Positions 3,700 to 40,780 of a stretch of DNA of 40,780 bases are shown in pieces. The DNA is taken from the IMG/VR virus record IMGVR_UViG_3300037171_000055, positions 1 to 40,780 of that record; one strand, 5' to 3'. The stretch's first letter is position 1; the number at the start of each line of letters is the position of its first letter. Position numbers and translations under genes: made by a program. The notes below the pieces were generated by a model that made no database searches, was not told where the DNA came from, and saw only the letters and a list, made by a program, of their open reading frames with translations. This DNA comes from a virus.

Positions 3700-3711
3700 A
3701 TGGGGGAAGGC

Positions 3712-26132: not shown

Positions 26133-26138
26133 ATAATC

Positions 26139-26468: not shown

Positions 26469-26659
26469 TTAAACTCTACACCCCCGGCCGTCCCGTAGAA
26501 TCTAGAGATGTCCTGCATTCGTTCGTGCATGACACCGCAATCCCGGCCTTCGTCTCGATTGCAATCTGCGGGCTGGCCCTTGCGGTAGGAGCGTTTGCGC
26601 TGAGAGGATTTCATGTCGTTGGATTTCGTGATGGTCAGATAGCCCGGAAGGTAAAATGA
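26465..26659 (+). CDS. Small single-span membrane protein, 64 aa
   Basis: ATGA overlap with the previous gene. One transmembrane helix at about residues 27-48 (AIPAFVSIAICGLALAVGAFAL) with short charged ends. It ends in the ATGA overlap with the repeat protein gene. Function unknown. Confidence 0.6.
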   Translation: MIKLYTPGRPVESRDVLHSFVHDTAIPAFVSIAICGLALAVGAFALRGFHVVGFRDGQIARKVK

Positions 26660-28155
26660 GTAACAAATGTAATTGTCAGATTTTTGATCCAGGAGACATG
26701 AGGAATAAAATGGAAAAAGAAAATGTATTTTGTGGGGACTTGGTCGTAAAGGAGGGGGAGATTTATCCGTATACAGAAATTACCGGCGACATCTCCTCAG
26801 GCGGTGAGATCAAGGCCGGGGCCTTCCCGGTTTTGCAGACTAACGGCGGCGACATCTCCTCAGGCGGTGGGATCAAGGCCGGGGCCTTCCCGGTTTTGCA
26901 GACTAACGGCGGCTACATCTACTCAGGCGGTGGGACGATCAAGGCCGGGGCCTTCCCGGTTTTGCAGACTAACGGCGGCGACATCTCCTCAGGCGGTGGG
27001 ATCAAGGCCGGGGCCTTCCCGGTTTTGCAGACTAACGGCGGCTACATCTACTCAGGCGGTGGGACGATCAAGGCCGGGGCCTTCCCGGTTTTGCAGACTA
27101 ACGGCGGCTACATCTCCTCAGGCGGTGGGACGATCGAGGCCGGGGCCTTCCCGGTTTTGCAGACTAACGGCGTCTACATCTCCTCAGGCGGTGGGATCGA
27201 GGCCGGGGCCTTCCCGGTTTTGCAGACTAACGGCGACTACATCTCCTCAGGCGATGGGACGATCGAGGCCGGGGCCTTCCCGGTTTTGCAGACTAACGGC
27301 GGCGACATCTCCTCAGGCGGTGGGATCAGGGCCCGGGCCTTCCCGGTTTTGCAGACTAACGGCGGCTACATCTACTCAGGCGGTGGGATCAGGGCCGGGG
27401 CCTTCCCGGTTTTGCAGACTAACGGCGGCGACATCTCCTCAGGCGGTGGGATCAGGGCCGGGGCCTTCCCGGTTTTGCAGACTAACGGCGGCTACATATA
27501 CTCAGGAGGTGAGATCAAGGCCGGGGCCTTCCCGGTTTTGCAGACTAACGGCGGCTACATCTCCTCAGTCGGTGGGATCAAGGCCGGGGCCTTCCCGGTT
27601 TTGCAGACTAACGGCGGCTACATCTCCTCAGGCGGTGGGACGATCGAGGCCGAGGCCTTCCCGGTTATTAGGAATAAAAACGACCCAAGAATAACTGAGG
27701 CAGTAAAACAAAAATGCCGTGCCATGCTTCTATCCACATTCGCGGCGGCGGGATTCTCATTCGCGGACGGGATTCTGGCGCGGATAGTTTCGCAGCGAGG
27801 GAATGTTGCTCGGGTAGTCATCTGCGGAAAAACAGAAGTATCCTACGTAGTTACTGATGGGGAGGGGAACTACTCGCACGGCGACACGCTTGATGAGGCG
27901 CGAGAAGACCTGATGGTAAAGCGTACCTCCAAAGACCTCTCGCAGTTCAAGTCGTGGACTCTGGACAAGGAAGTGTCGAAGTCCGGCGCCATCATGGCCT
28001 ATCGCTCGATCACCGGGGCCTGCCGAAAAGGGACTCGGCACTGGCTGGAACAGCACAAGACACCTGAGAAGATCACGGTTAGCGAGATAATAAAGATAAC
28101 CGAAGGGGCGTATAGAGCGGATATTTTCAAGAAGTTTTTTGCAAAGGGGGAATAA
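26656..28155 (+). CDS. Tandem-repeat protein with conserved C-terminal domain, 499 aa
   Basis: Residues about 44-337 are fourteen repeats of 20-21 residues on the theme GDISSGGGIKAGAFPVLQTNG, the last one degenerate. The regular Gly turns and short strands suggest a beta-solenoid. Residues about 345-499 form a separate domain (MLLSTFAAAGFSFADGILA, YSHGDTLDEAREDLMVKR, MAYRSITGACRKGTRHWLEQ). I recall this type of C-terminal domain in other repeat proteins of bacteria and phages, without known function. The start ATGA-overlaps the gene before. Repeats differ mainly at nonsynonymous sites. Confidence 0.7.
   Translation: MSNKCNCQIFDPGDMRNKMEKENVFCGDLVVKEGEIYPYTEITGDISSGGEIKAGAFPVLQTNGGDISSGGGIKAGAFPVLQTNGGYIYSGGGTIKAGAFPVLQTNGGDISSGGGIKAGAFPVLQTNGGYIYSGGGTIKAGAFPVLQTNGGYISSGGGTIEAGAFPVLQTNGVYISSGGGIEAGAFPVLQTNGDYISSGDGTIEAGAFPVLQTNGGDISSGGGIRARAFPVLQTNGGYIYSGGGIRAGAFPVLQTNGGDISSGGGIRAGAFPVLQTNGGYIYSGGEIKAGAFPVLQTNGGYISSVGGIKAGAFPVLQTNGGYISSGGGTIEAEAFPVIRNKNDPRITEAVKQKCRAMLLSTFAAAGFSFADGILARIVSQRGNVARVVICGKTEVSYVVTDGEGNYSHGDTLDEAREDLMVKRTSKDLSQFKSWTLDKEVSKSGAIMAYRSITGACRKGTRHWLEQHKTPEKITVSEIIKITEGAYRADIFKKFFAKGE
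26784..27666 (+). repeat. 60/63-bp in-gene tandem repeat array, 14 units
   Basis: Fourteen head-to-tail units; those carrying an extra ACG codon are 63 bp, the others 60 bp. The core GCCTTCCCGGTTTTGCAGAC is unchanged in thirteen units. Variable codons are GAC/TAC, TCC/TAC, AAG/GAG/AGG and a few Gly to Glu/Asp/Val changes. Copy number may be misassembled if reads were short. Confidence 0.9.
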
Positions 28156-28481: not shown

Positions 28482-28769
28482 ATGGAAGTGATGAAGGAGA
28501 AGCCTAAGCAGTTGATGGTGAAAATAACAGTCGAGCAAGAAGATGATTGCGGAGATGTCGTGAATGACCTTACGCAAGTCCGTTACGCATACGGCACAGT
28601 GGTAGGAGCCATGGCCGAGTTCTTCGGAGAAAAGAAGGCCAAGAAGCCGAGGGCCAAGCGCAGGACGAAGGCCGAGATCGAGGCGGCCAAGCAGGATGAC
28701 CCTCCGGCTCCGGAAGGCACGATCAGCTCGGAGCCCGTCGAGAAAAAGCACAGGAGGATTTTTCCTTGA
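28482..28769 (+). CDS. Hypothetical protein with basic tail, 95 aa
   Basis: AAAGGAGG lies 7 bases before the ATG. An N-terminal beta-like part (KQLMVKITVEQEDDCGDVV) is followed by a Lys/Arg/Ala-rich tail (KKAKKPRAKRRTKAEIEAAK) that could bind nucleic acid. Its TGA stop is inside the -35 box of the recombination operon promoter. No family recognised. Confidence 0.6.
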   Translation: MEVMKEKPKQLMVKITVEQEDDCGDVVNDLTQVRYAYGTVVGAMAEFFGEKKAKKPRAKRRTKAEIEAAKQDDPPAPEGTISSEPVEKKHRRIFP

Positions 28770-28794
28770 CTTCATGACTGAGGTAAAATAGGAT
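28766..28794 (+). promoter_or_regulatory. sigma70-type promoter (module B)
   Basis: TTGACT (28766-28771), a 17-base spacer and TAGGAT (28789-28794). The -35 box contains the stop codon of the previous gene. The -10 box TAGGAT is the same as in module C at 36199-36204. An ATG lies at the predicted start, 28801. Confidence 0.65.
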
Positions 28795-28800
28795 ATTCAA

Positions 28801-28873
28801 ATGGGACCGCTAGCCCTAGCCGCACCAGTTCACTATGTCGCGCCTTCTAGCGGGGGCGCGACATTTATTTTAT
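28801..28873 (+). ncRNA. Predicted short leader RNA of module B (about 73 nt)
   Basis: Bounded by the promoter at 28766-28794 and the terminator at 28835-28873. It could encode a leaderless 24-residue peptide (ATG 28801, stop TAG 28873-28875) rich in Ala, Pro and Gly; the terminator hairpin lies within that frame. It carries AGCCCTAG at 28812-28819, also present in module C. Small RNA, leader peptide or attenuator are all possible. Confidence 0.5.
28835..28873 (+). terminator. Intrinsic terminator inside module B
   Basis: ATGTCGCGCC (28835-28844) pairs perfectly with GGCGCGACAT (28855-28864), with a 10-base loop, followed by TTATTTTA. TAGGAG, the ribosome site of the nuclease gene, follows at once. 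Confidence 0.75.
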
Positions 28874-28883
28874 AGGAGAAACC

Positions 28884-29705
28884 ATGAAACTGCCTGAAGC
28901 CAAGTACGCCGTGACCGCAGACAAGAATCACAATTACCAGATCACGATGCCAGATGGATCAACGGTAGGACCGTTGAAGTCAGTTACTAAGATTGTAGGC
29001 ATTATCGAAAAGCCTGCTTTGATCGGATGGGCCGCGCGCGAGGCAGCAAACTATTTCCGCTCCGAGATATTGCGCCTGGGCGGTACGATAACGCCGGAAA
29101 TGATAGATCAGATTGCCAAGGATGCGGCGATGGCTCATAGACGCAAGTCTAAGGACGCCGCCGATCTTGGGACCAAGTGCCACGACATATTCGATGCCAT
29201 AATTAAAGGAATAGAGCCCGATGCAATCCCTCTTGAACTTGTAGAGCCTTCTGGGGAGTTCAAGAAATACCGTATGCAATCCGATATTGAAGTGGTAACA
29301 ACTGAACTTGCAGTGGCGTCCTTGGCGCATAAGTTCGGAGGTCGGCTTGACTTCCTGGGATATTCAAAGAAACGCGGCGGGTGGGGCATTGGGGACTATA
29401 AGACCAGCAGCGGATTCTATGGTTCAGAATATGCTTTCCAGGTCGGAGGTTATGCCGTTGCCGTCGAGGAAATGTACGGTATCAAAATATCCTGGGCCGA
29501 GATAATTCGCTTCTCAAATAAGCCGCCTTTTGAATCGGAAGCGCGACCAGTAACCGACATGGCTGCGGCAATGTCAAGTTTCTTAGTCGAGAAAGACATG
29601 AGCAATGCAAACGAGTTGAAGTTGATCGGAGATCCAACATTCTCAAGCGCGGGAGTACCGGAAGAAAAGCCTGCTAAGAAAAAGGCTCACGCCTTGGGCT
29701 TCTAA
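28884..29705 (+). CDS. PD-(D/E)XK nuclease, Cas4/RecB-like (putative recombination exonuclease)
   Basis: 273 residues. H100 (GTKCHDIF), D156 (GRLDFLG) and D171-Y-K173 (GIGDYKTSS), followed by FQVGGYAVAVEE, form the motif series of RecB/Cas4-type nucleases. It needs a metal ion and probably resects DNA ends for the neighbouring Sak4-like recombinase. First gene of the exonuclease-recombinase-SSB operon behind module B, with a TAGGAGA site. The C-terminus is Lys-rich. Confidence 0.85.
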   Translation: MKLPEAKYAVTADKNHNYQITMPDGSTVGPLKSVTKIVGIIEKPALIGWAAREAANYFRSEILRLGGTITPEMIDQIAKDAAMAHRRKSKDAADLGTKCHDIFDAIIKGIEPDAIPLELVEPSGEFKKYRMQSDIEVVTTELAVASLAHKFGGRLDFLGYSKKRGGWGIGDYKTSSGFYGSEYAFQVGGYAVAVEEMYGIKISWAEIIRFSNKPPFESEARPVTDMAAAMSSFLVEKDMSNANELKLIGDPTFSSAGVPEEKPAKKKAHALGF

Positions 29706-29742: not shown

Positions 29743-30519
29743 ATGGCTGTAATACTCGCACCAGCAAGAGGTAAGAAATTGACCGGGATGCCGACGGAAG
29801 GATTGATCGTATTGGTTGGGCTTCCGAAGGCAGGCAAAACGCATTTTGTAGCCAGCTTCCCCGATTCCGTGATCTTGGAATTGGAGAAAGGCGGCGGCGA
29901 CCGTGTTGCTGGGCGCATCCAAGATGTTAAAACGTTACAAGAGTTCCGAGAATATTTCAAGGCGGCTATCGACGACCCTGAAATAAAAGTAATTGGCGTG
30001 GACACCGTTGACCGATTCAATGACTTGATCGAGGACGACATAGCCCAAGCGCGGGGCTTGTCTACCATCAGCGAGCGCAAGGCCGGAGTGGACGGCTTTG
30101 AATTGTGGGGAGAACACCGCCAGCGAATAACAGGATTCGTAGAAGCCTGCAAGAACTGCGGTAAACTAGTCGTAGTCTTGGCACATTGCCGAGACCCCAA
30201 ACTAAGCACAGACGGTAGCGTAATGATTCCGTCCGGTGTGAATATGCCTGGAAAGTCCGGGCCTTATCTAGCGGCCCAGGCTGACGCTATTGGATACCAT
30301 TACAAGAAGCAGATCGGGGCTCAGACCCAATATTTCCTTACGTTTCAGGGTGGGCCGCTCGGGACATGGGGAAGTCGGATTGAAGAGCTGGAGGACAAGA
30401 CTATCCAATTAAGCAAGTCTGACCCTTACGGCTCATTCGCATCAATCTTCAAGACCAACGGCAAGGCTCAGGATGTTGCGCCTGCCAAGACGGAAAACAA
30501 GAAAAAGGGAGGAAAGTAA
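29743..30519 (+). CDS. Sak4-like RecA-fold ATPase (single-strand annealing / recombination)
   Basis: 258 residues. Walker A at residues 26-33 (GLPKAGKT) and Walker B ending at D87 (EIKVIGVDT). A later VVVLAHCRD strand carries a possible sensor. This matches phage Sak4-type single-domain RecA-like proteins (also annotated AAA ATPase or nucleotide-binding). It lies between a RecB-like nuclease and an SSB-like gene, the usual company of Sak4. An AGGAGAA site precedes the ATG. Confidence 0.8.
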   Translation: MAVILAPARGKKLTGMPTEGLIVLVGLPKAGKTHFVASFPDSVILELEKGGGDRVAGRIQDVKTLQEFREYFKAAIDDPEIKVIGVDTVDRFNDLIEDDIAQARGLSTISERKAGVDGFELWGEHRQRITGFVEACKNCGKLVVVLAHCRDPKLSTDGSVMIPSGVNMPGKSGPYLAAQADAIGYHYKKQIGAQTQYFLTFQGGPLGTWGSRIEELEDKTIQLSKSDPYGSFASIFKTNGKAQDVAPAKTENKKKGGK

Positions 30520-30520
30520 A

Positions 30521-31042
30521 ATGGCGCGAATTCAAATGAGGGCAGACGCGACGAAAGAGAGCGGGGACTTTTCCCCGGTCCCGGACGGTGAGTATGTCTT
30601 GGCCTGTACCGGGGTCCAGGACAAACGGACGCAGAAGGGTCGGGACATGGTGAACATTGAGCTTACCGTCGAGGACGGAGAATACAAGGGCCGAAAGTTG
30701 TGGGCCAACATTACGTTCATCCCAGAAGGCGAGCCGGGGCATGGGATGATGGTTCATGCTCTCCATGCCTTCGGCTTGCCTTACGACGGTGATTTGGACT
30801 TCGACACGCAGGACTTTCGGGGCCGTTGCGCTAAGGCTCAGGTAATCAAGACGACCTACACGGACGATAAAACCGGCGATGTGAAGCCTAAGAACGAGGT
30901 CAAAAACTGGATCACAGAAAATCACGGCAGCGCCGCCCCGCAAAAAGCCGACGTGCAATCCTCCGTCGCGGATGGTAAGCCTATCGCGCCTGGCGCTCCT
31001 GTGAATATCAAGAACAATAAAGGTGAGGAATGCCCGTTCTGA
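30521..31042 (+). CDS. SSB-like / DUF669-like ssDNA-binding protein
   Basis: 173 residues from ATG 30521 (GGGAGGAAAG site; open further left without one). PVPDGEYVLACTGVQDK, RDMVNIELTVEDGEYKGRKLW and a hydrophilic tail ending in an acidic/aromatic GEECPF give the layout of phage DUF669 or SSB proteins, with an OB-like N-terminus and a flexible tail ending in Phe. It would coat ssDNA for the Sak4-like protein. Confidence 0.75.
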   Translation: MARIQMRADATKESGDFSPVPDGEYVLACTGVQDKRTQKGRDMVNIELTVEDGEYKGRKLWANITFIPEGEPGHGMMVHALHAFGLPYDGDLDFDTQDFRGRCAKAQVIKTTYTDDKTGDVKPKNEVKNWITENHGSAAPQKADVQSSVADGKPIAPGAPVNIKNNKGEECPF

Positions 31043-31144
31043 CCTAACGCCTCCCGCCCAGACCTGGGGGCAGAGACCAGGTCAGGAGATATTATGGAAA
31101 GAATAATATATGTTTGTGACCGTAACAGAACGGGGGCATGAAAT

Positions 31145-31342
31145 ATGTTTTGTTGGCAATGCCGTGTCTGCCCGACATACTCGGAGAATATCCTGCGTAG
31201 GCCAGTAAGGAAAGGCGCTAAGACCCACGCGAGGATGTCGGGTCACACAACGTATTTATACGAGCGAGGCATCAATAGCAGGGGTAATCGCCGGTTCAGG
31301 ATTCTGGAAACTTTCGAGAGAAAAAATGAAGCCCTGCCCTAA
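31145..31342 (+). CDS. Small Cys/Arg-rich protein, 65 aa
   Basis: Starts MFCWQCRVC, a close-spaced Cys cluster, and ends in a basic stretch (GNRRFRILETFERKNEALP). The rival short frames from ATG 31094 (15 aa, with a strong AGGAGA site) and ATG 31138 (20 aa) overlap its start, so the true translation pattern of 31094-31200 is unclear. A hairpin GACCTGG/CCAGGTC lies at about 31059-31081. The next gene starts inside its end. Function unknown. Confidence 0.4.
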   Translation: MFCWQCRVCPTYSENILRRPVRKGAKTHARMSGHTTYLYERGINSRGNRRFRILETFERKNEALP

Positions 31343-31493
31343 AGATCGCTCGATCCGCTGCTCCGACAACTGCCGCGCTTGCCACCGCTTCCCCAACGGG
31401 CGGGAGGCTTTGCTGTTCGACAACGAGCAATACCAATATATGACCGGGAAGGCTCCGGGTGTACATATCAGACAGTGGAGCCCAAAGCCATGA
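31326..31493 (+). CDS. Small Cys-rich protein, 55 aa
   Basis: ATG 31326 lies in the last codons of the previous frame and TGA 31491-31493 overlaps the next ATG. C-P-K..., IRCSDNCRACHRFPNGRE has three closely spaced cysteines, probably a metal-binding knuckle. It is shorter than 60 residues but well coupled on both sides. Function unknown. Confidence 0.5.
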   Translation: MKPCPKDRSIRCSDNCRACHRFPNGREALLFDNEQYQYMTGKAPGVHIRQWSPKP

Positions 31494-31723
31494 TCAAAAA
31501 AATCACCGCGAAGGAAAAGATACTCAAGTTCCTCTCCGACGCCGCCGCAAGAGGTTATCCGTTTCAGGTCCCGAGGGAGATTTCAAAGGGGATCGAGTTC
31601 GTCAATGAGTGCGCCTGTTCGGCACGCTGCCGGGAGATGGTCAATGCAGGGAAGCTGGACCGACGGCAGCGCGAAGGGTCTAAGGAAGTTGAGTTTAGGC
31701 TTTTGGGTGGGGAGGGAGCATGA
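31490..31723 (+). CDS. Small winged-helix-like protein, 77 aa
   Basis: ATGA overlap on both sides. Residues about 1-60 (KEKILKFLSDAAARGYPFQV, then SARCREMVNAGKLDRR) look like a small winged helix. The C-terminal SKEVEFRLLGGEG is nearly the same as the C-terminus of the radical SAM protein ending at 33627 (SKEVEFMLIGEG), and the DNA is identical for 21 bases. This implies a shared gene end, probably by recombination. DNA-binding is only inferred. Confidence 0.55.
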   Translation: MIKKITAKEKILKFLSDAAARGYPFQVPREISKGIEFVNECACSARCREMVNAGKLDRRQREGSKEVEFRLLGGEGA

Positions 31724-32316
31724 GCGACAAAAGATATTGCGCGAATCAGGGAAGTGGGTACTGCGGTGAGTGCGTATCCAATGATTTGAACGACAAGATA
31801 GCCGCCCTTCGGGCCGAGCTTGCCGCCGAGAAGGCCAAACGGGAGGCGGTAGAGAACGAGCGAGACAGATTCCAGAACCAGTTGGGGGAGAAATTCCCGA
31901 CTAGTTTTGGGAAGCTGGATTGGGCTTGTGGACATACTGGCCCCGCCGCTTGCCTACAGTGCTTCGAGGGTAAGTGCGCCAGTGCCGACACCCTTACGCG
32001 TGAGCTTGCCGCAAAGAATGAACGCTTGGAGTATCTGGAAGGCCAGGACCGAAGCCTTCTTGAACAGCATCAGGCGTCCGTGATAACCCTTGGGGATAGC
32101 GACCTTCTTGCTGTGGGCGGGAGGCTATTGGACCGCGCCGAGCGGACGGAGGCTTTGAAGAAGGTGGTGGCATTGAGCCATAAGGCTGATGAAATGGACG
32201 ATGCCAACACTCTGGACTATTCGGCTTGTCTGACGATACTAGCTGGAATCAAAGCGGCTCTGCCCAAGCCGGATGACTCGCGCCACGACAAGACGGGGGA
32301 GGGGGAGAAGATATGA
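31720..32316 (+). CDS. Coiled-coil protein with Cys motif, 198 aa
   Basis: N-terminal Cys cluster (YCANQGSGYCGECVS), a coiled coil at about residues 25-55 (IAALRAELAAEKAKREAVEN), a second Cys group near residue 70 (WACGHTGPAACLQCFEGKC) and another coiled coil after it. It resembles in plan the protein at 39715-40152 (Cys knuckle plus coiled coil). Function unknown; ATGA overlaps on both sides. Confidence 0.6.
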   Translation: MSDKRYCANQGSGYCGECVSNDLNDKIAALRAELAAEKAKREAVENERDRFQNQLGEKFPTSFGKLDWACGHTGPAACLQCFEGKCASADTLTRELAAKNERLEYLEGQDRSLLEQHQASVITLGDSDLLAVGGRLLDRAERTEALKKVVALSHKADEMDDANTLDYSACLTILAGIKAALPKPDDSRHDKTGEGEKI

Positions 32317-32609
32317 AGAATGAAGACGGCGGGTATGCGTTCCCAGGACCATCAGTGCAAATCAATGACTGTGTTTTTGAGCAACATGGTTTGACCTTGC
32401 GAGACTACTTTGCGGCAAAAGTAATACAGGGCATGGCTTCCCTGGATGATGGGCGATGCCCGAATCGAGAAGACCAAAAGGATATTTATGCCTGGCGCGT
32501 CAAGTGCATGATGCAAGACGCTGAGGCGGCTTATCTTCAGGCTGACGCCATGATAAGGACTCGGGAAATGAGGTCCGTCGCCAGCCCTGACCGGGAGGAG
32601 GGGAGATGA
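32313..32609 (+). CDS. Small conserved phage accessory protein (LTLRDYFAAK motif), 98 aa
   Basis: Contains GLTLRDYFAAKVIQGM near residue 27, a motif common to many small uncharacterised phage proteins, usually preceded as here by a GGYAFP start. The C-terminal ASPDREEGR is encoded by the repeated gene-junction element (20-base core at 32580-32599). Role unknown. Confidence 0.65.
   Translation: MKNEDGGYAFPGPSVQINDCVFEQHGLTLRDYFAAKVIQGMASLDDGRCPNREDQKDIYAWRVKCMMQDAEAAYLQADAMIRTREMRSVASPDREEGR
32580..32599 (+). repeat. Gene-junction repeat, copy 1 (GCCAGCCCTGACCGGGAGGA)
   Basis: The same 20 bases occur at 39181-39200 and 39692-39711. In all three copies the GGAGGA end serves as the Shine-Dalgarno site of the next gene. 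In copies 1 and 2 it also encodes the C-terminal ASPDREEGR of the preceding protein. Confidence 0.8.
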
Positions 32610-32737
32610 AAGTCAAGTCGATTTGGTGGTACATCATATCATTTTTCTATTGCGCCCCGTACCCGCCAATCGATGCGGACTATTGCTTGGTGTGCCGACA
32701 ACCGGTCTCTCTTTGCCTATGCGACGGTGAGAAATGA
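32606..32737 (+). CDS. Small membrane/Cys protein, 43 aa
   Basis: ATG 32606 follows GGAGGAGGGGAG and overlaps the previous stop; its own stop overlaps the next ATG. A hydrophobic aromatic start (IWWYIISFFYCA) is followed by a Cys cluster (YCLVCRQPVSLCLC). Could be a membrane-anchored metal-binding peptide. Function unknown. Confidence 0.5.
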   Translation: MKVKSIWWYIISFFYCAPYPPIDADYCLVCRQPVSLCLCDGEK

Positions 32738-33627
32738 AAGGACGCTATGAATGGCCAAAAGCACCATTTATCTGGTGCGATGAAACCCACGTTAACATGA
32801 GCATACCTTTCACATGGAACATTCCCGAGGCCGTAGAGCATATCCTGTTTCACGATGGGGCGAAGTTCCGGGTGGGCGGTCCTGCCATCATGCTGATGCC
32901 CGAGATGTTCGCAGGGATCGCCAACTGCGAGGTAGGGCAGGACGCGCCCGGACTGTTGCAGAAGGTCAACCCGGAGGCCACACGGACAACTCTTGGATGC
33001 ATACGCAAATGTGGATTCTGCGGTATCGGAACAGGGGCTATAGAGCCGGGAGGGTTTCGCGAACTTCCCGACTGGCCAAACCTCCCGATCATCTGCGACA
33101 ACAATCTACTGGCCGCAAGCCCTAAGCATTTCGAGAGCGTCATAGACCGATTGGTTCCGCATGGGTGGGCCGACTTCAACCAGGGAATTGATCCGCGAAT
33201 ACTAACGGACTTCCACGCCAAACAATTCCGGCGCATCAAGAAGCCAACAATCTATCTTGCCTTGGATAATGCGGCCACGAAGGAAGCATGGATGATGGCG
33301 TTTGAACGGTTGCGGAGCGTCGGGATCGCCAAGAGCAGTATCCGGTCCTATGTTCTGATCGGGTTCAAGAGCGGCCCTTCCGACGCCTGGGACCGTTGCG
33401 AGTTCGTGACTAAAGCGGGGGTCATGGCGATCCCGATGTGGTTTCACGGCCTGCGGTGCCTGAAGCACAACGAAGTTACCGATGAGCAGAAGGATAAATA
33501 TGGATGGTCCGATTCCGAACGCATAGCGATAGGCAAGTGGTATTTTCAGCACCAGGACAAGGGCTCTAAGTATTGCCCGAAGCGGTCTAAGGAAGTTGAG
33601 TTTATGCTGATTGGGGAGGGGAGATGA
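32734..33627 (+). CDS. Radical SAM superfamily protein
   Basis: 297 residues. C89-x3-C93-x2-C96 (CIRKCGFC) is the 4Fe-4S/AdoMet motif. It is followed by a DNNLLAASPKHFE segment and FNQGIDPRILTD, the pattern of the core barrel of B12-independent radical SAM proteins, then IYLALDNA near residue 173 and SYVLIGF near residue 207. Substrate unknown. It lies directly before, and overlaps by ATGA, the helicase-methyltransferase gene, so DNA modification or tRNA/protein modification are both conceivable. Its C-terminal SKEVEFMLIGEG is shared with the gene ending at 31723. Confidence 0.8.
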   Translation: MKGRYEWPKAPFIWCDETHVNMSIPFTWNIPEAVEHILFHDGAKFRVGGPAIMLMPEMFAGIANCEVGQDAPGLLQKVNPEATRTTLGCIRKCGFCGIGTGAIEPGGFRELPDWPNLPIICDNNLLAASPKHFESVIDRLVPHGWADFNQGIDPRILTDFHAKQFRRIKKPTIYLALDNAATKEAWMMAFERLRSVGIAKSSIRSYVLIGFKSGPSDAWDRCEFVTKAGVMAIPMWFHGLRCLKHNEVTDEQKDKYGWSDSERIAIGKWYFQHQDKGSKYCPKRSKEVEFMLIGEGR

Positions 33628-36179
33628 ATGAATATCAGGAGTTCATAAAGTCGAAGGTGCAGCTAGAGCATGGCTACGGTTTCCCATGCTCGCCGGAAGA
33701 GGTTAATCCTATCCTGAAGCCTCACCAAGTCGCGTCAGTGGTCTGGGCCGTCAAGGGAGGACGGCGCGCGCTCTTTGAAGCCTTCGGCCTTGGCAAGACG
33801 CTGATGCAGTTGGAAATCCTACGCATCATCCTTGAAAAGAAAGGCGGCGGCCAGGCTCTTATAATCTGTCCGCTCGGTGTTCGTCAGGAGTTCAAGCACG
33901 ACGCCGAAATGCTTAAACAGCCATGCACATTCATCCGCACAAACGCGGAGGCCGTAATGGATGGAATATATCTCACAAACTACGAGAGCGTCCGGGACGG
34001 AAAACTAGACCCGCGACAATTCGTAGCCGTGAGCCTGGATGAGGCCGCTATTCTACGCGGATTCGGAGGAACAAAAACCTTCCGCGAGTTCATGGCTATC
34101 ATGGCCGGCGACGACCGGCGCGAGATCGCGGGCAAGACCGGAGGCGGCGAGATTCCTTATCGCTTCGTGGCCACGGCAACACCGAGCCCTAACGAATACA
34201 TCGAATTGCTTTCCTATGCGGCATTCTTGGGAATAATGGACGTGGGCCAGGCAAAGACCCGCTTCTTTAAGAGAGACTCAACGAAGGCCGATAAGTTAAC
34301 GATTCATGAACACAAGGAGGAGGAGTTCTGGTTATGGGTTTCAAGCTGGGCTCTTTTCGTTCAACGGCCTAGCGACCTTGGCTATGACGACACCGGATAC
34401 GAGTTGCCGCCGCTAGATGTCCGCTGGCATGAGGTCCCGACAGATCACCGGAATGCTGGATATGAAAAAGACGGGCAGGGAAAACTCCTGAAAGAAGCGA
34501 CCATCGGCGTTAGCGATGCCTCCCGAGAGAAGCGCGACAGTCTGAGCAAGCGCATTGCAAAGATGATGGAGATCCGTTCCGAAGAGCCAGAAGAGCATCG
34601 CGTTATCTGGCACGATCTGGAAGATGAGCGCCGCGCCATTGAAGCGGCGATACCTACAGTGGTAAGCGTCTACGGTTCGCAGGAAGAGGAAGAAAAGGAA
34701 AAGGCCATAACCGACTTCGCGAAAGGTCACACGGCTGAACTTGCCGGGAAGCCGGTCATGCTTGGTGCAGGCGTGAATATGCAGCGACACTGCGCCCGAG
34801 AGATATTCTTAGGGATTGGCTACAAATTCCGAGACTTCATCCAGAGCGTCCACCGGGTTCGCCGCTTCCTGCAAACTCGGCAGGTCAGAATTGATATCAT
34901 CTACTCCGAGGCCGAGAGAGAAATCCGCCGGCAACTTGAACGCAAATGGAAGCAACACGAAGAGCTGGTGGCGAACATGACAGCCATAATCAAGAAGTAT
35001 GGCCTGTCCGCATCCGCGATGTCTGGCGCTTTGAAACGATCAATCGGTTGCGATCGCAAAGAGGAACAAGGCAAGGGATGGGTGGCCGTCAATAACGATT
35101 GCGTGGACGAGACGTCCCGCATGAAGTCGGAGAGTGTTGGTCTTATCCTTACGAGCGTCCCATTCGCAACGCAGTACGAATACAGCCCGAGCTACAATGA
35201 CTTCGGCCACACTGATGACGAGGAGCATTTCTTCCGGCAGATGGACTTCCTGACGCCGCACCTATACCGCGTTCTGAAGCCCGGCCGCATCCTGGCCGTA
35301 CACTGCAAGGACCGAATCAAGCCGAGCGGTTTGACTGGAATGGGATTCCAGACAGTGACGCCGTTTAGCGATATGTGCTCATCCCACTATATCAAGCACG
35401 GCTTCGGATTACTGTCCCGCAAGACAATCAATACCGACGTTGTGCGCGAGAACGCGCAGACCTACCGCCTGGGCTGGACGGAACAGTGTAAGGACGGCAG
35501 CCGAATGGGGAACGGGATGCCGGAATATCTATTGATCTTCCGCAAGCCTCCTACGGATACGAGCAACGGATACGCTGATGAGCCAGTGGTTAAAAGCAAA
35601 ACCAAGTACACACGGGCCCGCTGGCAGTTCGACGCTCACGGATTCCAGAGGTCGAGCGGAAATCGTCTGCTACAACCTGAGGACTTAAAGGGCGTCTCAT
35701 CGTCGATGATATTCAAGATGTTCCGAAAGCACTCCAAAGAATCCGTCTACAACTTCGAGAAGGATGTAGCCATTGCCGAGTACCTCGATTCGATCAAGAT
35801 GCTCCCTCCGAGCTTCATGCTCTTGCAGCCGTGGGCGCACAACCCGGACACATGGTCAGACGTTACGCGGATGCGGACCATGAACATGGAGCAGGCTTCC
35901 AAGGGGAAAGAGATGCACCTATGCCCGTTGCAATTCGATATCTGCGACCGCGCCATAAATCAATACACAAATCCGGGAGATGAGGTTTATGATCCATTCG
36001 GAGGTCTTATGACCGTTCCCCTGCGGGCCATCCGGGCAGGGCGTCTGGGCAGAGGATGCGAACTGAGCTCGTCCTACTTCACCGACGGAGTTTGGCACCT
36101 TCGCCGTACCGAGGCTATGGTAAATTCACCAGAACTTTTTGACCTTGATTCAGTAATGAATCAAGAGTCGGAGGCTTGA
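33624..36179 (+). CDS. SNF2-type helicase fused to beta-class DNA methyltransferase
   Basis: 851 residues. Helicase half (about 20-450): motif I at 53-59 (AFGLGKT), motif II at D139-E140 (SLDEAAILRG), motif III (ATATPSPNEY) and motif VI (QSVHRVRRFLQ). Methyltransferase half (about 490-850): motif IV TSVPF at 510-514, and motif I-like DPFGGLMTVPLRA from residue 790. The order IV then I is that of permuted N6-A/N4-C enzymes. The catalytic tetrad SVPF departs from the usual (D/N/S)PP(Y/F/W). Known relatives are phage helicase-methylase proteins; a role in self-modification against restriction is inferred. Confidence 0.85.
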   Translation: MNEYQEFIKSKVQLEHGYGFPCSPEEVNPILKPHQVASVVWAVKGGRRALFEAFGLGKTLMQLEILRIILEKKGGGQALIICPLGVRQEFKHDAEMLKQPCTFIRTNAEAVMDGIYLTNYESVRDGKLDPRQFVAVSLDEAAILRGFGGTKTFREFMAIMAGDDRREIAGKTGGGEIPYRFVATATPSPNEYIELLSYAAFLGIMDVGQAKTRFFKRDSTKADKLTIHEHKEEEFWLWVSSWALFVQRPSDLGYDDTGYELPPLDVRWHEVPTDHRNAGYEKDGQGKLLKEATIGVSDASREKRDSLSKRIAKMMEIRSEEPEEHRVIWHDLEDERRAIEAAIPTVVSVYGSQEEEEKEKAITDFAKGHTAELAGKPVMLGAGVNMQRHCAREIFLGIGYKFRDFIQSVHRVRRFLQTRQVRIDIIYSEAEREIRRQLERKWKQHEELVANMTAIIKKYGLSASAMSGALKRSIGCDRKEEQGKGWVAVNNDCVDETSRMKSESVGLILTSVPFATQYEYSPSYNDFGHTDDEEHFFRQMDFLTPHLYRVLKPGRILAVHCKDRIKPSGLTGMGFQTVTPFSDMCSSHYIKHGFGLLSRKTINTDVVRENAQTYRLGWTEQCKDGSRMGNGMPEYLLIFRKPPTDTSNGYADEPVVKSKTKYTRARWQFDAHGFQRSSGNRLLQPEDLKGVSSSMIFKMFRKHSKESVYNFEKDVAIAEYLDSIKMLPPSFMLLQPWAHNPDTWSDVTRMRTMNMEQASKGKEMHLCPLQFDICDRAINQYTNPGDEVYDPFGGLMTVPLRAIRAGRLGRGCELSSSYFTDGVWHLRRTEAMVNSPELFDLDSVMNQESEA

Positions 36180-36204
36180 CAACCCCGCGCATCGGTGGTA
36201 GGAT
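36176..36204 (+). promoter_or_regulatory. sigma70-type promoter (module C) for the replication operon
   Basis: TTGACA (36176-36181), a 17-base spacer and TAGGAT (36199-36204). The -35 box contains the stop codon of the helicase-methyltransferase gene. The predicted start, about 36211, is the first paired base of the leader RNA stem. Confidence 0.75.
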
Positions 36205-36210
36205 TAATCA

Positions 36211-36317
36211 GCCCTAGAAAAGCTACCACGAAAATGACAACCATCTTTCCCGCCGTCCGCGCTTTTTGTGGGGCTTTTCTAGGGCTCCCGCCGAGAAGCC
36301 GGGCGGCGGGAATTTTT
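36211..36317 (+). ncRNA. Structured leader RNA of module C (about 107 nt)
   Basis: The 5' end GCCCTAGAAAAGC (36211-36223) pairs perfectly with GCTTTTCTAGGGC (36273-36285), extended inward by CCACGAAAA with TTTTTGTGG (9 bp, one G-U). This gives a long hairpin with a loop of about 28 nt. The loop contains TTCCCGCCG (36247-36255), which is complementary to the 3' arm of the following terminator (CGGCGGGAA, 36304-36312). It can therefore form an antiterminator that competes with the terminator. No convincing reading frame inside. No RNA family recognised. Confidence 0.6.
36286..36317 (+). terminator. Intrinsic terminator of module C
   Basis: TCCCGCCG (36286-36293), a 10-base loop and CGGCGGGA (36304-36311), followed by A and TTTTT (36313-36317). 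The ribosome site TTGGAGAG of the replication gene comes next. An alternative partner for the 3' arm lies in the leader loop at 36247-36255. Confidence 0.75.
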
Positions 36318-36331
36318 ACTTGGAGAGCATC

Positions 36332-37123
36332 ATGAGCCGAATCCGGACTATAAAGCCCCAAATTTCACTCGATGAAGAATTAGCCGATCTTGGATTCGCG
36401 GCCCGTCTTTTCTTTCGTGACTTCCTGTGCCATTGCGACCGAGAGGGGCGCTGCGAGGACAGGCCAAAGATGCTCAAGGCAGTCATCATGCCATGGGACG
36501 ATATTGATGTTGATGTCCTACTTTCTGAGCTTTCGCCAAAATTCATCATCCGGTACGAAGTCGAAGGAAAAAAGTATCTCCAAGTTCGGCAGTTCCTAAA
36601 ACACCAAAAACCAAACATCAAAGAAGCTCCAAGCACAATTCCTTGCTGCCCAAAGGATATTTTGGAAAAGCACGAAAAAGAAAGTGCTAGCACGATTAAG
36701 ACAGTTGGGAATAGGGAAGGGAATAGGGAAGAAGGAATAGGGAATGGGGTAGGGAAAGGAAGGGAAAACGGAATAGCTCCGAGCCCTGCGGGCTCCGAGC
36801 CGCCAGTATTGATTTTTCCAATCCACGGTAAGATAAAAGAGTGGTGGTTGACCCAAAAACATATAGACTCACTAAAAGATGATTTCCCGGCCCTTGACGT
36901 GCTGTCTCAATGCCGCTCCGCTAGACGGTGGTGCTACGACAATCCAAAAAAACAAAAGACAGCATCTGGGATGCCGAAATTCCTTGGTGGATGGATGGCT
37001 AGGCGACTGAACAACGGAGGCTCTAATGGAAACTGGAATCAAGGCAACAATCAAACGCATATTGTCGGAGGCGCAGCTCCTGTCCCAGGTAAGTACGCCG
37101 GAATTGTCAATAAGCCTGGATGA
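36332..37123 (+). CDS. Replication initiator / replisome organiser-like protein with internal iterons
   Basis: 263 residues from ATG 36332 (TTGGAGAG site; the open frame further left is the leader RNA). The N-terminal winged-helix-like part (IRTIKPQISLDEELADLGFAAR, then FFRDFLCHCDREGR and LQVRQFLKHQKPN) is typical of phage replication organisers. Residues about 126-150 are a Gly/Asn/Glu/Arg low-complexity linker encoded by iteron-like DNA. The C-terminus ends VPGKYAGI. It overlaps the DnaC-like gene by 98 bases in another frame. The arrangement recalls lambda O-P. Confidence 0.75.
   Translation: MSRIRTIKPQISLDEELADLGFAARLFFRDFLCHCDREGRCEDRPKMLKAVIMPWDDIDVDVLLSELSPKFIIRYEVEGKKYLQVRQFLKHQKPNIKEAPSTIPCCPKDILEKHEKESASTIKTVGNREGNREEGIGNGVGKGRENGIAPSPAGSEPPVLIFPIHGKIKEWWLTQKHIDSLKDDFPALDVLSQCRSARRWCYDNPKKQKTASGMPKFLGGWMARRLNNGGSNGNWNQGNNQTHIVGGAAPVPGKYAGIVNKPG
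36708..36776 (+). repeat. Iteron cluster, candidate replication origin
   Basis: GGAATAG occurs at 36708-36714, 36720-36726, 36734-36740 and 36770-36776, with related GGGAAG and GGGAATGG copies between. It is followed by the hairpin GAGCCC-TGC-GGGCTC (36781-36795) and a direct repeat of GCTCCGAGCC. Purine-rich iterons inside an initiator gene are how the lambdoid origins are built. Confidence 0.55.
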
Positions 37124-37715
37124 TTTGCACGAAGAAGCATTTCTTGAAGATTCTTACATGAAAGTCTTGCTAAGAGAAAAAGCCTACCATCTTGGTGGAG
37201 TCCGCTCTCGCGATGAGTTTACGCGAGAGAATTTTACCGTAACGGATAAGAACAAGAACGCCTTTGAATCCTGCGATGCGTTCAAACCAAAGACCGATAA
37301 TCTCTACCTATTCGGAGCGACCGGAACCGGGAAGAGCCACCTCGCCATAATAGCGGCTAGGAAGTTCTGGCGAGGTGCTCTAGTCGTCAAGCCTAGTGAA
37401 ATATTCCGGAAGATCCGGGCCTGCGACGGTGCGGAAGAGGAAGTGTCCACCATCGGCGGTTATGCCTGGCAGGAAGTCCTGGTAATTGACGACCTGGGCG
37501 TCGGAAAGGATACGGAATTTGCCGTAACGTCCATGTACGAGATCATCGACCGGCGCTATCAGTTAATGAGCGGCGGCCTAATCGTGGCGACCAACCTTAG
37601 CCCGGATGAACTGGCAAAGAAACTAGGAGACGACCGTATCCCTTCCCGGTTGGCGCAGATGTGCCGAGGGCATATATTTGATCTGGGAAGCGCTAAGGAT
37701 TGGAGGATTGCATGA
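37026..37715 (+). CDS. DnaC-like helicase loader ATPase
   Basis: 229 residues. Walker A at residues 97-104 (GATGTGKS), Walker B D155-D156 (VLVIDDLG), sensor-like LIVATNLSP and a C-terminal SRLAQMCRGHIFDLGSAKDWR match the DnaC/IstB family that loads the replicative helicase. The ATG at 37026 has GGAGG upstream and lies inside the end of the initiator gene. No phage helicase gene is seen, so it would hijack host DnaB. Confidence 0.85.
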   Translation: METGIKATIKRILSEAQLLSQVSTPELSISLDDLHEEAFLEDSYMKVLLREKAYHLGGVRSRDEFTRENFTVTDKNKNAFESCDAFKPKTDNLYLFGATGTGKSHLAIIAARKFWRGALVVKPSEIFRKIRACDGAEEEVSTIGGYAWQEVLVIDDLGVGKDTEFAVTSMYEIIDRRYQLMSGGLIVATNLSPDELAKKLGDDRIPSRLAQMCRGHIFDLGSAKDWRIA

Positions 37716-37876
37716 ACGTGCGTCTAACGGTTTGGCGCAAAGATGGCCGCGTTCAAAGCGCGGTAAAGGATATAGACTCGGCCATGCAGAGCTTTGATAT
37801 TGCGCAGAGGGAGTCAACGACCAATCACGTCTTGATGGAGCCGGCCAGCATTACGACGGCGCCGGAATGGAGATAA
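37712..37876 (+). CDS. Small hypothetical protein, 54 aa
   Basis: ATGA overlap with the loader gene; the stop at 37874-37876 is one base from the next ATG. Begins with a strand (VRLTVWRKDGRV) and continues with a helix. No family recognised. Confidence 0.55.
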   Translation: MNVRLTVWRKDGRVQSAVKDIDSAMQSFDIAQRESTTNHVLMEPASITTAPEWR

Positions 37877-37877
37877 T

Positions 37878-38276
37878 ATGAAGCTACTGTGCTTGACTTT
37901 CACCGGGCAAATACGCGGGGGGAAAAATAATCTTATCGTTTTGAGAAACGGTATGCACATCCCGCGCCGTGAGTGGGCCGTTTGGAGAGATGCCCAGGTC
38001 ATATTTCTAAAAAGCCAGTCAAAAGGGGTTTGCTTCGATGCCCCATGCTCCGTAATCGTGCGCTATTGGGCCGGGGATTCCCGTAGGCGCGACGTTCCGG
38101 CTATCATGGACTCCATGTGCCACTGCCTGGAAAGGGCTGGCGTGGTGAAAGACGACAGCCTGCTTATAAATTGGGACTGGATATTCATGGGCCTGGACCG
38201 TGAGCATCCCAAGGCCGAGATCGTGATAACCGAATTGGAGGCAAGACCATGCGGAGAAACGCTTGAACCAAATTGA
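37878..38276 (+). CDS. RusA-like Holliday junction resolvase
   Basis: 132 residues, close to RusA length. D67 and D72 (GDSRRRDVPA), then MDSMCHCLERAGVVKDDSLL with D92-D93, then a C-terminal strand KAEIVITE. The spacing corresponds to the catalytic aspartates of E. coli RusA (70, 72, 91). It would cut branched replication or recombination intermediates. It ends 14 bases inside the next gene, which starts at a TTG. Confidence 0.75.
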   Translation: MKLLCLTFTGQIRGGKNNLIVLRNGMHIPRREWAVWRDAQVIFLKSQSKGVCFDAPCSVIVRYWAGDSRRRDVPAIMDSMCHCLERAGVVKDDSLLINWDWIFMGLDREHPKAEIVITELEARPCGETLEPN

Positions 38277-39210
38277 AACGAAGCTGACGCCGAAGGAATG
38301 GGCCATACGCCGGGCCGACGAAATCCATAAGTTTCGGAACGCGCAGGCATTTAATAAATCCCTGACTCCGGCGGCCGTTCAAAAGCCAACCGACGCGCTG
38401 AAGGCTCAGGCCGAAGAACGCTATCCGGGGAAGAAGCCGGAAGACATCCGCGCTTTTAACGTGCTGAACCGGAAGCTATGGGTTGACCTGGCCACGCTGT
38501 ACAATTTGCTAGGCAACGCCAACAAGGGGACCGCCGAAGAAACGGAAAAGATCGGGCTTCAGGCCGCGCTGAAACTGTCCGCGCTTCATACGATCATCCT
38601 TCAGGACGCCTTCGGGCGGACCGCCAGGAAGGCCGCGCTATGGGTCGAAGAATACAAGACGGCCGACAAAGACGAAGAAGAAAACCGCCAGCTAATGCTG
38701 AATGAACTGGCCGCCTATGAGGATGTTAGCTTCGCGGAAAAGTTTACAGACAGTCTTCCGCTTGGGGAAAATATCCGCATCCGCTTTCCGACGCTGATTG
38801 AAGAATGGGTCCGGGGGACGAAGAAGCTGATAGCGGATGTCTTCGCGCATCAGGCCGCCGTTAAGATCATACAGGACAAATACTTCGACGGCCATCCGAT
38901 CCTATGCCTGGACGTTGAAGCCGGGCTGGACGCTTCGATCAAGACGATCCAGGAAGCGGTCGGGACGTTCAATGACTACCTGAAGACCAGGTCGGAACTA
39001 TTTAAGGTCGAATGGGACGCCGAAGAAAAAGAAGACGGGATCGCGTCCGCCATCCCTGGCGAAAGGGAAGGTCTGCTGGCCATCAACATCGACACCGTCA
39101 AGAGCAACGCCAAACGCCAGGGCGCTGACCTGGTCGAAGGCATGGTCAAGCAAGCCAGGACGGACGCATCCGTCGCGGCCGCCAGCCCTGACCGGGAGGA
39201 GGGGAGATGA
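38263..39210 (+). CDS. Helical protein of unknown function, 315 aa, TTG start
   Basis: The start is TTG 38263, with GGAG 7 bases upstream; no ATG lies near in the frame. Entirely helical, rich in Ala, Glu and Lys. No motif recognised. Glu is written mostly GAA here, whereas neighbouring genes use many GAG codons, which hints at a separate origin. The C-terminal AASPDREEGR comes from the same repeated junction element found at 32580. A role in replication is possible only from position. Confidence 0.6.
   Translation: MNQIETKLTPKEWAIRRADEIHKFRNAQAFNKSLTPAAVQKPTDALKAQAEERYPGKKPEDIRAFNVLNRKLWVDLATLYNLLGNANKGTAEETEKIGLQAALKLSALHTIILQDAFGRTARKAALWVEEYKTADKDEEENRQLMLNELAAYEDVSFAEKFTDSLPLGENIRIRFPTLIEEWVRGTKKLIADVFAHQAAVKIIQDKYFDGHPILCLDVEAGLDASIKTIQEAVGTFNDYLKTRSELFKVEWDAEEKEDGIASAIPGEREGLLAINIDTVKSNAKRQGADLVEGMVKQARTDASVAAASPDREEGR
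39181..39200 (+). repeat. Gene-junction repeat, copy 2
   Basis: Identity with copy 1 continues about 11 bases past the 20-base core, through GGGGAGATGAA, so it includes the ribosome site and start codon of the following gene. Confidence 0.8.
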
Positions 39211-39413
39211 AGAAGTTCACGGATAAGCAACGACTGGATTTTGTAGCACAAGACCCAGGAGCTATCTTTGTTTGCGGGGCATCGTGGGCGTGGTGGGACG
39301 GAAACGATTGGGTGAAGTTCAATCGCTCCGGGAATCTCAACACGCCCAGGCAGGCCATCGACGCCGCCATGCGCTCCGACACGCGCCGGGAGCGGGGGGA
39401 GGGGCGGTGCTAG
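39207..39413 (+). CDS. Small accessory protein, 68 aa
   Basis: ATGA overlap with the previous gene and GGAGGAGGGGAG upstream. FVCGASWAWWDGNDWVKF is aromatic, followed by a helical tail (TPRQAIDAAMRSDTRRE). No family recognised. Confidence 0.55.
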   Translation: MKKFTDKQRLDFVAQDPGAIFVCGASWAWWDGNDWVKFNRSGNLNTPRQAIDAAMRSDTRRERGEGRC

Positions 39414-39493
39414 TAGTGCCCAGGAAAACCAACATGACGAAATCGCTAGCCGCGAATCAGCCCGCCGTCCGTCCAGCCGGGGAGGGTGAGTAA
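39407..39493 (+). CDS. Possible 28-aa peptide, GTG start
   Basis: GTG 39407 overlaps the previous gene's end and has GGGGGAGG upstream. It ends TAA immediately before the next ATG, so its main role might be translational coupling. Too short to assess; supported by packing only. Confidence 0.3.
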   Translation: MLVVPRKTNMTKSLAANQPAVRPAGEGE

Positions 39494-39685
39494 ATGAACG
39501 AGGGCGGGCCGTATGTTCAGTACGATGGCGAGGCAACTTTCGCTAGGCGGTGCAAGAAGTGCAATCGCATCGTCCGGGCCGACAAGAGCATCCAAGTAAG
39601 CGAGGAGCGAGGGCTCGCGCCGGATTTCAATGCCACTTGCAAGAAGTGCGGCAGGACCCACATGGTGTTCCTGGGGTTCGTATGA
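39494..39685 (+). CDS. Small zinc-ribbon-like protein, 63 aa
   Basis: C-x2-C near residue 20 (CKKCNRIV) and again near residue 50 (CKKCGRTH) make a likely four-cysteine zinc ribbon. Starts directly after a TAA with GGGTGAG upstream. Similar tiny zinc ribbons in phages often act in transcription or protein binding; the role here is unknown. Confidence 0.6.
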   Translation: MNEGGPYVQYDGEATFARRCKKCNRIVRADKSIQVSEERGLAPDFNATCKKCGRTHMVFLGFV

Positions 39686-39691
39686 CCCGCC

Positions 39692-39711
39692 GCCAGCCCT
39701 GACCGGGAGGA
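39692..39711 (+). repeat. Gene-junction repeat, copy 3 (non-coding)
   Basis: Here the 20-base core lies wholly between genes, after the TGA at 39683-39685 and just before the ATG at 39715, so the conserved function is the ribosome site or recombination, not the peptide. Confidence 0.8.
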
Positions 39712-39714
39712 ACG

Positions 39715-40152
39715 ATGAATAAAATCTGTGTCTTGTGCCATGCGATAAACGCGGAACTGGCTACGGTCTGCCACTATTGCGGCGCGGCTCTTGGCGAGGC
39801 TCCGCACGAAGGGGCCGCCATGCGGGAGCGGACGAGGGAGCTTGAGGACGAGAAATTGCGATACCAGCAGTCCTGCTATGGCCGAGCAGCGTTCTTCATG
39901 GAAGAACTGAATGCGCTTAGGATTGAGCTTGAGGCCGAGAGGTCCAGAAGGGAGGCGGCAGAGCAGGCAAGGAATATCTACGCTGATGCAAAAGATGGAA
40001 TGGCAGAATGTGGGACCAAGCAACAGCTAAGGGCCGACTCCCTCGCCAAGCGCGTGACCGAGCTAACGGAGCAGTTGAACGCTTACGCTGTGCAGTACGG
40101 AAATGCCGCCCTGTCACAGCCGAAGCCCGCCTCGAAGGAAAAGGAGAAATAG
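39715..40152 (+). CDS. Zinc-knuckle and coiled-coil protein, 145 aa
   Basis: N-terminal CVLCHAINAELATVCHYCG is a zinc-ribbon (two C-x2-C pairs). It is followed by a long coiled coil at about residues 35-85 (MRERTRELEDEKLRYQQ, LNALRIELEAERSRREA) and a second helix. The architecture resembles 31720-32316. It begins behind the third copy of the 20-base junction repeat (39692-39711). Confidence 0.6.
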   Translation: MNKICVLCHAINAELATVCHYCGAALGEAPHEGAAMRERTRELEDEKLRYQQSCYGRAAFFMEELNALRIELEAERSRREAAEQARNIYADAKDGMAECGTKQQLRADSLAKRVTELTEQLNAYAVQYGNAALSQPKPASKEKEK

Positions 40153-40154
40153 CC

Positions 40155-40538
40155 ATGACCAAATCGAACACCTACGAAGTCGAGCTGCGCGGGCATTCGT
40201 TCCTCGTGACCGGCACCCACAATCCGGGAGAGCCGCGAGTCACGTCCGGGCCTGCGGAGCGGTGGTATCCAGGTAGCCCGGAGTGCGTGGAGATCGAGAA
40301 GGTGGAGCTGGTTCGGGGCAATAGGCAGCGAGAACTCCATGGACCCATAAAAGCTGCCGAGGGGTGCGATTTTTATTGTTGCCCAGGCGGTGGTGATTGC
40401 GAGCGGTGCATGGCCTTGGACGCCCTTCTCGAAGAGTTGGAAGAAAAAATCCTAGAGTCAATGCAGGAAGGCGACTGCGGGACGGACTACGATCCGGATT
40501 GTGCCGCCGAGAGAAGGGCTGAGATTTTGGAGGACTGA
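40155..40538 (+). CDS. Acidic Cys-containing protein, 127 aa
   Basis: ATG 40155 with AAGGAG upstream; the frame is open further left but overlaps the previous gene. Begins with a beta-like part (YEVELRGHSFLVTGTHNP), a Cys cluster (CDFYCCPGGGDCERC) near residue 75 and an acidic helix. No family recognised. Confidence 0.6.
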   Translation: MTKSNTYEVELRGHSFLVTGTHNPGEPRVTSGPAERWYPGSPECVEIEKVELVRGNRQRELHGPIKAAEGCDFYCCPGGGDCERCMALDALLEELEEKILESMQEGDCGTDYDPDCAAERRAEILED

Positions 40539-40540
40539 CC

Positions 40541-40651
40541 ATGCCCGACGACCGAGACGTGATATCCCGCATCGAGGGCCGCGAGGATGACGACGCGGAG
40601 TACCTTTTCGATGACTTTTCAGAGGAGCGAGCGGCGATCTTTGAGGACTAA
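40541..40651 (+). CDS. Small very acidic protein, 36 aa
   Basis: Starts 2 bases after the previous stop with TTGGAGG upstream. Nearly half of its residues are Asp or Glu. Such small acidic phage proteins can mimic DNA or act as inhibitors, which is only a possibility here. Its stop overlaps the end of the convergent - strand junction gene. Confidence 0.5.
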   Translation: MPDDRDVISRIEGREDDDAEYLFDDFSEERAAIFED

Positions 40652-40653
40652 AT

Positions 40654-40780
40654 CGGGCAGTCCGGGTAGTAGAGTTTGATGATCCTGGCCCAGACCGGCT
40701 CAACCGCGTGTCCGAGTCTCCAGCGGTTGACCGTTGTGCTGTGCGGCCTCAGACCGACCGGGAGGCCAACCAGAAAGACC
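40654..40780. repeat. Terminal direct repeat, right copy
   Basis: Identical to bases 1-127. Joining the ends gives a circle of about 40,653 bp. It contains a second copy of the 3' part of the - strand junction gene, whose stop codon lies just left of it at 40648-40650. Confidence 0.95.

Follow-up and report, generated by a model that had tools for sequence, protein, structure and literature searches.

The leader preceding the replication operon of an uncultured phage is best interpreted as a promoter-proximal attenuator, which would yield a short RNA of about 107 nt together with a partial passage of the polymerase into the rep-dnaC genes. Judged from the predicted folds and the organization of the locus, this reading is given slightly better than even odds (about 0.55). 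A promoter, a long 5' hairpin and an intrinsic terminator follow each other in series inside 156 nt, and the series ends at the ribosome-binding site (RBS) of rep.

Elements of the leader and their genomic setting

The window, i.e., the whole stretch of DNA that was analysed, corresponds to the whole virus record IMGVR_UViG_3300037171_000055 (40,780 bases) and carries direct terminal repeats of 127 nt at its ends. It encodes structural proteins (head-tail adaptor/portal, major head protein and tail proteins), a recombination block (exonuclease and Sak4-like protein) and a replication block (helicase/methyltransferase, replication initiator, DnaC-like loader and RusA-like resolvase). No close relative of the window was found at the DNA level among the 50,697 phage records searched. 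The leader is located between the helicase/methyltransferase gene, which ends at 36179, and the replication initiator gene, which starts at 36332. The features of the locus are as follows:

36144-36165, strand not assigned: perfect 9-bp dyad CTTGATTCA-GTAA-TGAATCAAG, directly upstream of the -35 element and within the 3' end of the upstream gene
36176-36204, + strand: sigma-70-type promoter TTGACA-17-(TG)TAGGAT, scoring 10/12, with an extended -10 element and a predicted +1 at 36211
36211-36285, + strand: 5' hairpin S1, made of 13 perfect bp, a G-U pair, a bulge and 9 bp (about -33 kcal/mol), beginning at the predicted +1
36234-36335, + strand: 33-codon leader ORF MTTIFPAVRAFCGAFLGLPPRSRAAGIFTWRAS, devoid of a clear Shine-Dalgarno sequence, crossing the terminator and overlapping the rep start (ATGA)
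36247-36255, + strand: S1 loop element TTCCCGCCG, complementary over 9 bp to 36304-36312
36247-36312, + strand: competing long hairpin (-48 kcal/mol), which also abuts the U-tract and is predicted to be preferred only in read-through RNA
36286-36317, + strand: intrinsic terminator, with an 8-bp stem (36286-36293/36304-36311), a loop of 10 nt and a U-tract at 36313-36317
36319-36331, + strand: Shine-Dalgarno region (GGAGAG) and spacer of rep, predicted as unpaired in state A and mostly paired in state B (both defined below)
36332-37123, + strand: replication initiation protein gene (rep), first gene of the operon (phrog_16167, 2e-36)
37026-37715, + strand: gene of the DnaC-like helicase loader

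The promoter ranks best among the 7 promoter-like sites occurring in 30000-40780, a number close to the 6.4 obtained in shuffled sequences, and since such sites are thus at chance level in this region, the +1 at 36211 is a prediction only. The dyad lying directly upstream occurs as a single copy in the window (0.01 expected with up to 3 mismatches) and represents a possible operator.

The outer stem of S1 (36211-36223/36273-36285) consists of 13 perfect base pairs, or 14 when the pair 36210/36286 is included, and is followed, after one G-U pair and a bulged A, by an inner stem of 9 bp comprising one G-U pair (36226-36234/36263-36271). The promoter scan and the inverted-repeat search agree in this respect with the sequence-only reading, according to which the predicted RNA starts exactly at a 13-bp perfect stem extended by 9 bp inward. 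The perfect stem is the longest Watson-Crick inverted repeat of the genome (gap of up to 120 nt; 14 pairs counting the base before +1), and stems of at least 13 bp occur at 0.15 per genome in shuffled genomes (n=20). As a whole, the 122-nt leader folds with a z-score of -4.15, and none of 200 dinucleotide shuffles is equally stable.

The loop of S1 offers 9 Watson-Crick base pairs to the 3' arm of the terminator (36247-36255 with 36304-36312), versus the 8 bp offered by the terminator's own 5' arm; these counts of the earlier reading were reproduced, and a shuffled loop achieves the same pairing in 0.1% of trials. The terminator stem, with 7 G-C pairs among its 8 bp, is followed by A-UUUUU, so that a GC-rich hairpin with a direct U-tract is recognized as an intrinsic terminator with a moderate tail score. 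The tract is limited to five U, with ACUUGG coming next, and one base separates it from the stem; because of these two properties, termination in the leader may be weak.

Predicted folding of the leader RNA

Two competing folds were considered, state A, made of S1 and the terminator hairpin, and state B, made of the long hairpin 36247-36312. In stepwise folding, S1 forms earliest (-33 kcal/mol for a transcript ending at 36285), followed by the terminator (total of -50.3 kcal/mol at 36317), and the same fold persists up to 36327. In equilibrium folding, the probability of state A is 0.96 at 36311 and 0.88 at 36317, corresponding to 0.04 and 0.12 for state B. Depending on the transcript end, the probability of state B then amounts to 0.71 at 36325, 0.99 at 36332, 0.34 at 36360 and at least 0.93 at 36390-36500. 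The predicted folds thus favour state A in short RNA and state B in long RNA. When the RNA is folded up to 36332, state B pairs most of the Shine-Dalgarno bases and state A leaves them unpaired; the energy gap between the two at this point is about 3 kcal/mol, a value that does not exceed the model error and changes with the length of the transcript. For the conversion of A into B, the most favourable direct path identified crosses a barrier of about 37 kcal/mol, which is an upper bound.

This balance recalls the IsrK RNA of the prophage Gifsy-1, where one promoter gives rise to both a short RNA and a read-through mRNA whose RBS is concealed (PMC4825925). By analogy, the terminated short RNA of the phage would act in trans and the read-through mRNA would adopt state B, its hidden RBS being opened by the short RNA or by translation of the leader ORF, a scheme that is considered unlikely. 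It would account for the preference for A in short and B in long RNA and for the pairing of most of the GGAGAG motif in state B; in addition, two molecules could interact through the S1 loop of one and the 3' arm of the other (predicted duplex of -30 kcal/mol), and the 33-codon ORF ends on the start codon of rep, as in coupled translation. Gifsy-1 IsrK does operate in this way (PMC4825925). However, the A/B gap at 36332 lies within model error, the probability of state B falls to 0.34 at 36360, and the leader ORF has no clear Shine-Dalgarno sequence. The IsrK-orf45-anrP leader (PMC4825925) resembles what is predicted for the present one: a promoter of its own, a short RNA with an intrinsic terminator, some read-through towards a phage gene, two competing structures close in energy and a small leader ORF; it differs by the nature of the downstream gene, an antirepressor there and a replication initiator here, and there is no known sequence relation between the two. 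Among the systems compared, IsrK appears to fit the predicted A/B balance best.

Repeated modules and crossed stems

The order promoter, terminator, RBS and gene is common to three terminators of the window (3/3), namely 3656-3692, 28835-28864 and the leader terminator 36286-36311, all of them on the + strand, about 35-75 nt from the predicted +1 and directly upstream of an RBS. The first two are the strongest intrinsic terminators of the window when both strands are compared. The parallel modules and a second leader with crossed stems comprise:

3567-3712, + strand: promoter-terminator-RBS module before the gene starting at 3712; terminator at 3656-3692, with T8
28766-28884, + strand: promoter-terminator-RBS module before the exonuclease gene (start 28884); promoter scoring just 9/12, terminator at 28835-28864
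26104-26236, + strand: second crossed-stem leader; promoter at 26104-26132, first stem at 26142-26152/26197-26207, loop 26177-26188 pairing over 12/12 positions with 26225-26236

The coincidence of the three modules is weakened by the general enrichment of both promoters and terminators in intergenic DNA. In another explanation, also unlikely, the terminator would belong to the upstream operon or serve as a constitutive damper, S1 merely stabilizing the 5' end of the message with no switching at all. The two operons are co-directional and the upstream gene, which ends at 36179, runs into the promoter, as this explanation would have it, and a 5' hairpin by itself suffices to protect an mRNA. 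However, a terminator of the upstream operon need not follow the next promoter, yet the promoter precedes the terminator in all three cases, and the additional complementarity of the loop would stay unexplained.

Crossed stems were searched with a first stem of at least 9 bp and a loop-to-downstream stem of at least 8 bp. Just two arrangements in the genome reach a sum of 23 bp, 26142-26236 and 36210-36312, and in 60 shuffled genomes the sum never exceeded 20. Both start within a few bases of the predicted +1, and the two leaders, at promoters 26104 and 36176, are unrelated in sequence. The RNA starting at 26139 is also balanced between two stems (-29.5 versus -32.7 kcal/mol), S1 or S2 leading according to length. 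With respect to its location, some caution is needed, as this RNA may fall within a coding region starting at 26139. An initiation motif shared by the leaders B and C, AGCCCTAG, was discarded as not significant (13% of shuffles). The recurrence of the crossed stems and the repeated promoter-terminator-RBS-gene order support a function; the leader belongs to an ordinary class of elements with an unusual build, and the recurrence at two promoters lifts it above the routine. It is quite improbable that the two leaders represent an undescribed type, in which a long 5'-terminal stem with a loop complementary to a downstream segment (crossed, pseudoknot-competent A-B-A'-B' topology), built from unrelated sequences at promoters 26104 and 36176, would time the passage from a short RNA to a translatable message as the transcript grows.

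Searches for relatives gave little. At the DNA level, no homologue of the leader was found in phages, the only match being a chance-level one of 32 nt in one Tsukamurella phage (two accessions). A search of viral contigs for the stem pattern gave six matches, none of which folds into the hairpin and which were judged as chance, and a further search gave none; no leader homologue was found in related records, and the search of viral contigs yielded no close relatives of either rep or DnaC. Relatives of the upstream helicase/methyltransferase do exist, but no rep homologue was found beside it in the retrieved loci. Among 160 loci of rep homologues, an upstream ORF ends at most 20 nt away in 135 and within 80 nt in another 17 (152 in total), and apart from the window itself none of the 160 has a promoter and a terminator upstream of rep. 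The only rep locus with a comparable terminator (L166) has a small regulator-like gene first and then the terminator, whose end is 26 nt away from the start; this layout resembles cro-tR1. The idea of the leader as a trait of the rep family was accordingly rejected, as 0 of the 160 homologues carry such a leader.

Antitermination, proposed mechanism and significance

An antiterminator frees the U-tract through capture of the 5' arm of the terminator. Here, the competing helix takes the 3' arm and abuts the U-tract, and it is itself terminator-like because it ends exactly where the U-tract begins; with the polymerase at the U-tract (36311-36317), equilibrium folding populates it at 0.04-0.12 only. 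Since the 3' arm is captured and the preference for state B arises only past the stop point, the designation of the loop-to-3'-arm pairing as an antiterminator is not supported by the predicted folds. A rescue of transcription would need the capture of the 5' arm, or the bases beside the U-tract in a single-stranded form. Of the switchable attenuator proposed by the sequence-only reading for the replication operon, the attenuator persists as the best reading, a promoter and a leader preceding an intrinsic terminator, which is in turn followed by the regulated gene, and the same order of elements occurring twice more, whereas the antiterminator switch is not supported. As first drawn, with S1 opened or shifted and the loop taking the 3' arm to allow read-through, the switch is very unlikely: its 9-bp complementarity is real and improbable by chance, and the loop, as a pseudoknot, could pair with S1 still closed (predicted duplex of -16.9 kcal/mol), but the competing helix shares the U-tract end and would likewise be expected to terminate, its population is small at the point where termination is decided, the direct-path barrier is about 37 kcal/mol and no ligand or protein site is known.

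Among established systems, amino-acid operon attenuators of the trp/his type are organized as promoter, leader, terminator and operon. The order is the same here, whereas the competing pair takes the 3' arm of the terminator and control codons do not occur in runs within the leader ORF. The repZ leader of IncI/IncB plasmids combines a loop-RBS pseudoknot, a leader ORF and a replication initiator gene. The phage leader resembles it by an initiator gene with a leader ORF and by a loop complementary to a segment beside the RBS; in contrast, its pairing hits a terminator arm, and no minus-strand promoter of at least 9/12 occurs opposite the loop, and an antisense RNA directed against it was rejected on this ground. 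In lambdoid phages, the PR'-tR' terminator is overcome by Q. Both this arrangement and the late genes of Xp10, read through with P7 (PMC6624301), share with the present phage a strong promoter and a close intrinsic terminator in front of a phage operon, three such modules occurring here; they differ in that no Q-, N- or P7-like antiterminator protein was recognized among the scanned proteins, and in the large S1 and crossed pairing found in addition. Terminators are an established layout before late genes, as in Xp10 (PMC6624301), and before early genes, as in lambdoid phages with the put RNA (PMC9378689). The HK022 put RNA (PMC9378689) is also a structured RNA with two hairpins at the 5' end of an early transcript, putL lying just downstream of PL, but a put-type function, in which S1 and the next hairpin, directly after an early-type promoter, would bind the polymerase and render it terminator-resistant, is most improbable in view of the size (about 70 nt for put versus 107 nt), the much longer first stem, the U-tract borne by the second hairpin and the result of the Rfam search, with 0 matches in the window at gathering thresholds and leader matches all far below the gathering scores.

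From the sequence elements, the predicted energies and the repeated order of the modules, we infer the start site, the termination, the short RNA and any regulation under the attenuator reading. The host RNA polymerase would initiate at about 36211, and the nascent 5' end would fold into S1. The hairpin 36286-36311 would form subsequently and cause a considerable proportion of polymerases to stop at the U-tract, near 36317, giving a compact RNA of about 107 nt with a base-paired 5' end. Polymerases passing the terminator, either by chance or with a phage factor conferring terminator resistance, would produce the rep-dnaC mRNA, in which loop pairing may favour the long hairpin burying the RBS, a second and translational brake, if this fold is reachable. 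A stand-alone small RNA, the other option of the earlier reading, is compatible with attenuation.

The two crossed-stem leaders provide two independent test objects with one topology in one genome, and the role of the loop pairing, in termination or in translation, can therefore be addressed by a simple experiment in vitro. Should the leader function as predicted, a podovirus-like uncultured phage would gate the operons for replication and recombination, as well as the gene block starting at 3712, by terminators placed directly behind the promoters, and it would probably need an antitermination device that the family libraries did not recognize.

A second leader with crossed stems

Between 26104 and 26270, a promoter (TTGACA-17-TATACT) is followed by an 11-bp stem beginning at +4, the loop of which pairs at 12 of 12 positions with a segment downstream of the stem. 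This crossed topology is shared with the leader of promoter 36176, which precedes the replication initiation gene; the two sequences are unrelated. There may be overlap between this structure and a coding region whose first codon would be the ATG at 26139.

Start codons close to promoters

Five strong promoter-like sites have an ATG some 5-8 nt 3' of the -10 element, which suggests that they give rise to leaderless transcripts. The 24-codon ORF at 28801 passes through the terminator of its own module.

Positions of the five cases
620 (-)
3600 (+)
25888 (+)
26139 (+)
28801 (+)

Repeats and dyads

An exact 16-bp repeat, AATAGGACACATGACC, looks like an operator common to a small HTH gene and its neighbour.

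Copies of the 16-bp repeat
25878-25893, spanning the start of the HTH gene (25888-26073)
26111-26126, within promoter 26104

A 32-nt block, CGCCAGCCCTGACCGGGAGGAGGGGAGATGAA, containing both an RBS and a start codon, occurs at three gene junctions, two of the three copies being identical.

Copies of the 32-nt block
32579-32610
39180-39211
39691-39722

Two gene starts are each directly preceded by a 41-nt repeat (31677-31717 and 33584-33624, 80% identical). The ORF 26656-28155 carries about 14 tandem copies of a 63-66 nt unit (26784-27666), encoding a repeat of about 21-22 residues (GAFPVLQTNGG..SSGGG), and this ORF is without match in Pfam and PHROG. A single-copy, perfect 9-bp dyad (36144-36165), located within the 3'-terminal part of the gene before it, adjoins the upstream side of the promoter 36176-36204. 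Inside the initiator gene, the G-rich 12-nt repeats GGGAATAGGGAA (36707-36761) could be replication-origin iterons or a G-quadruplex.
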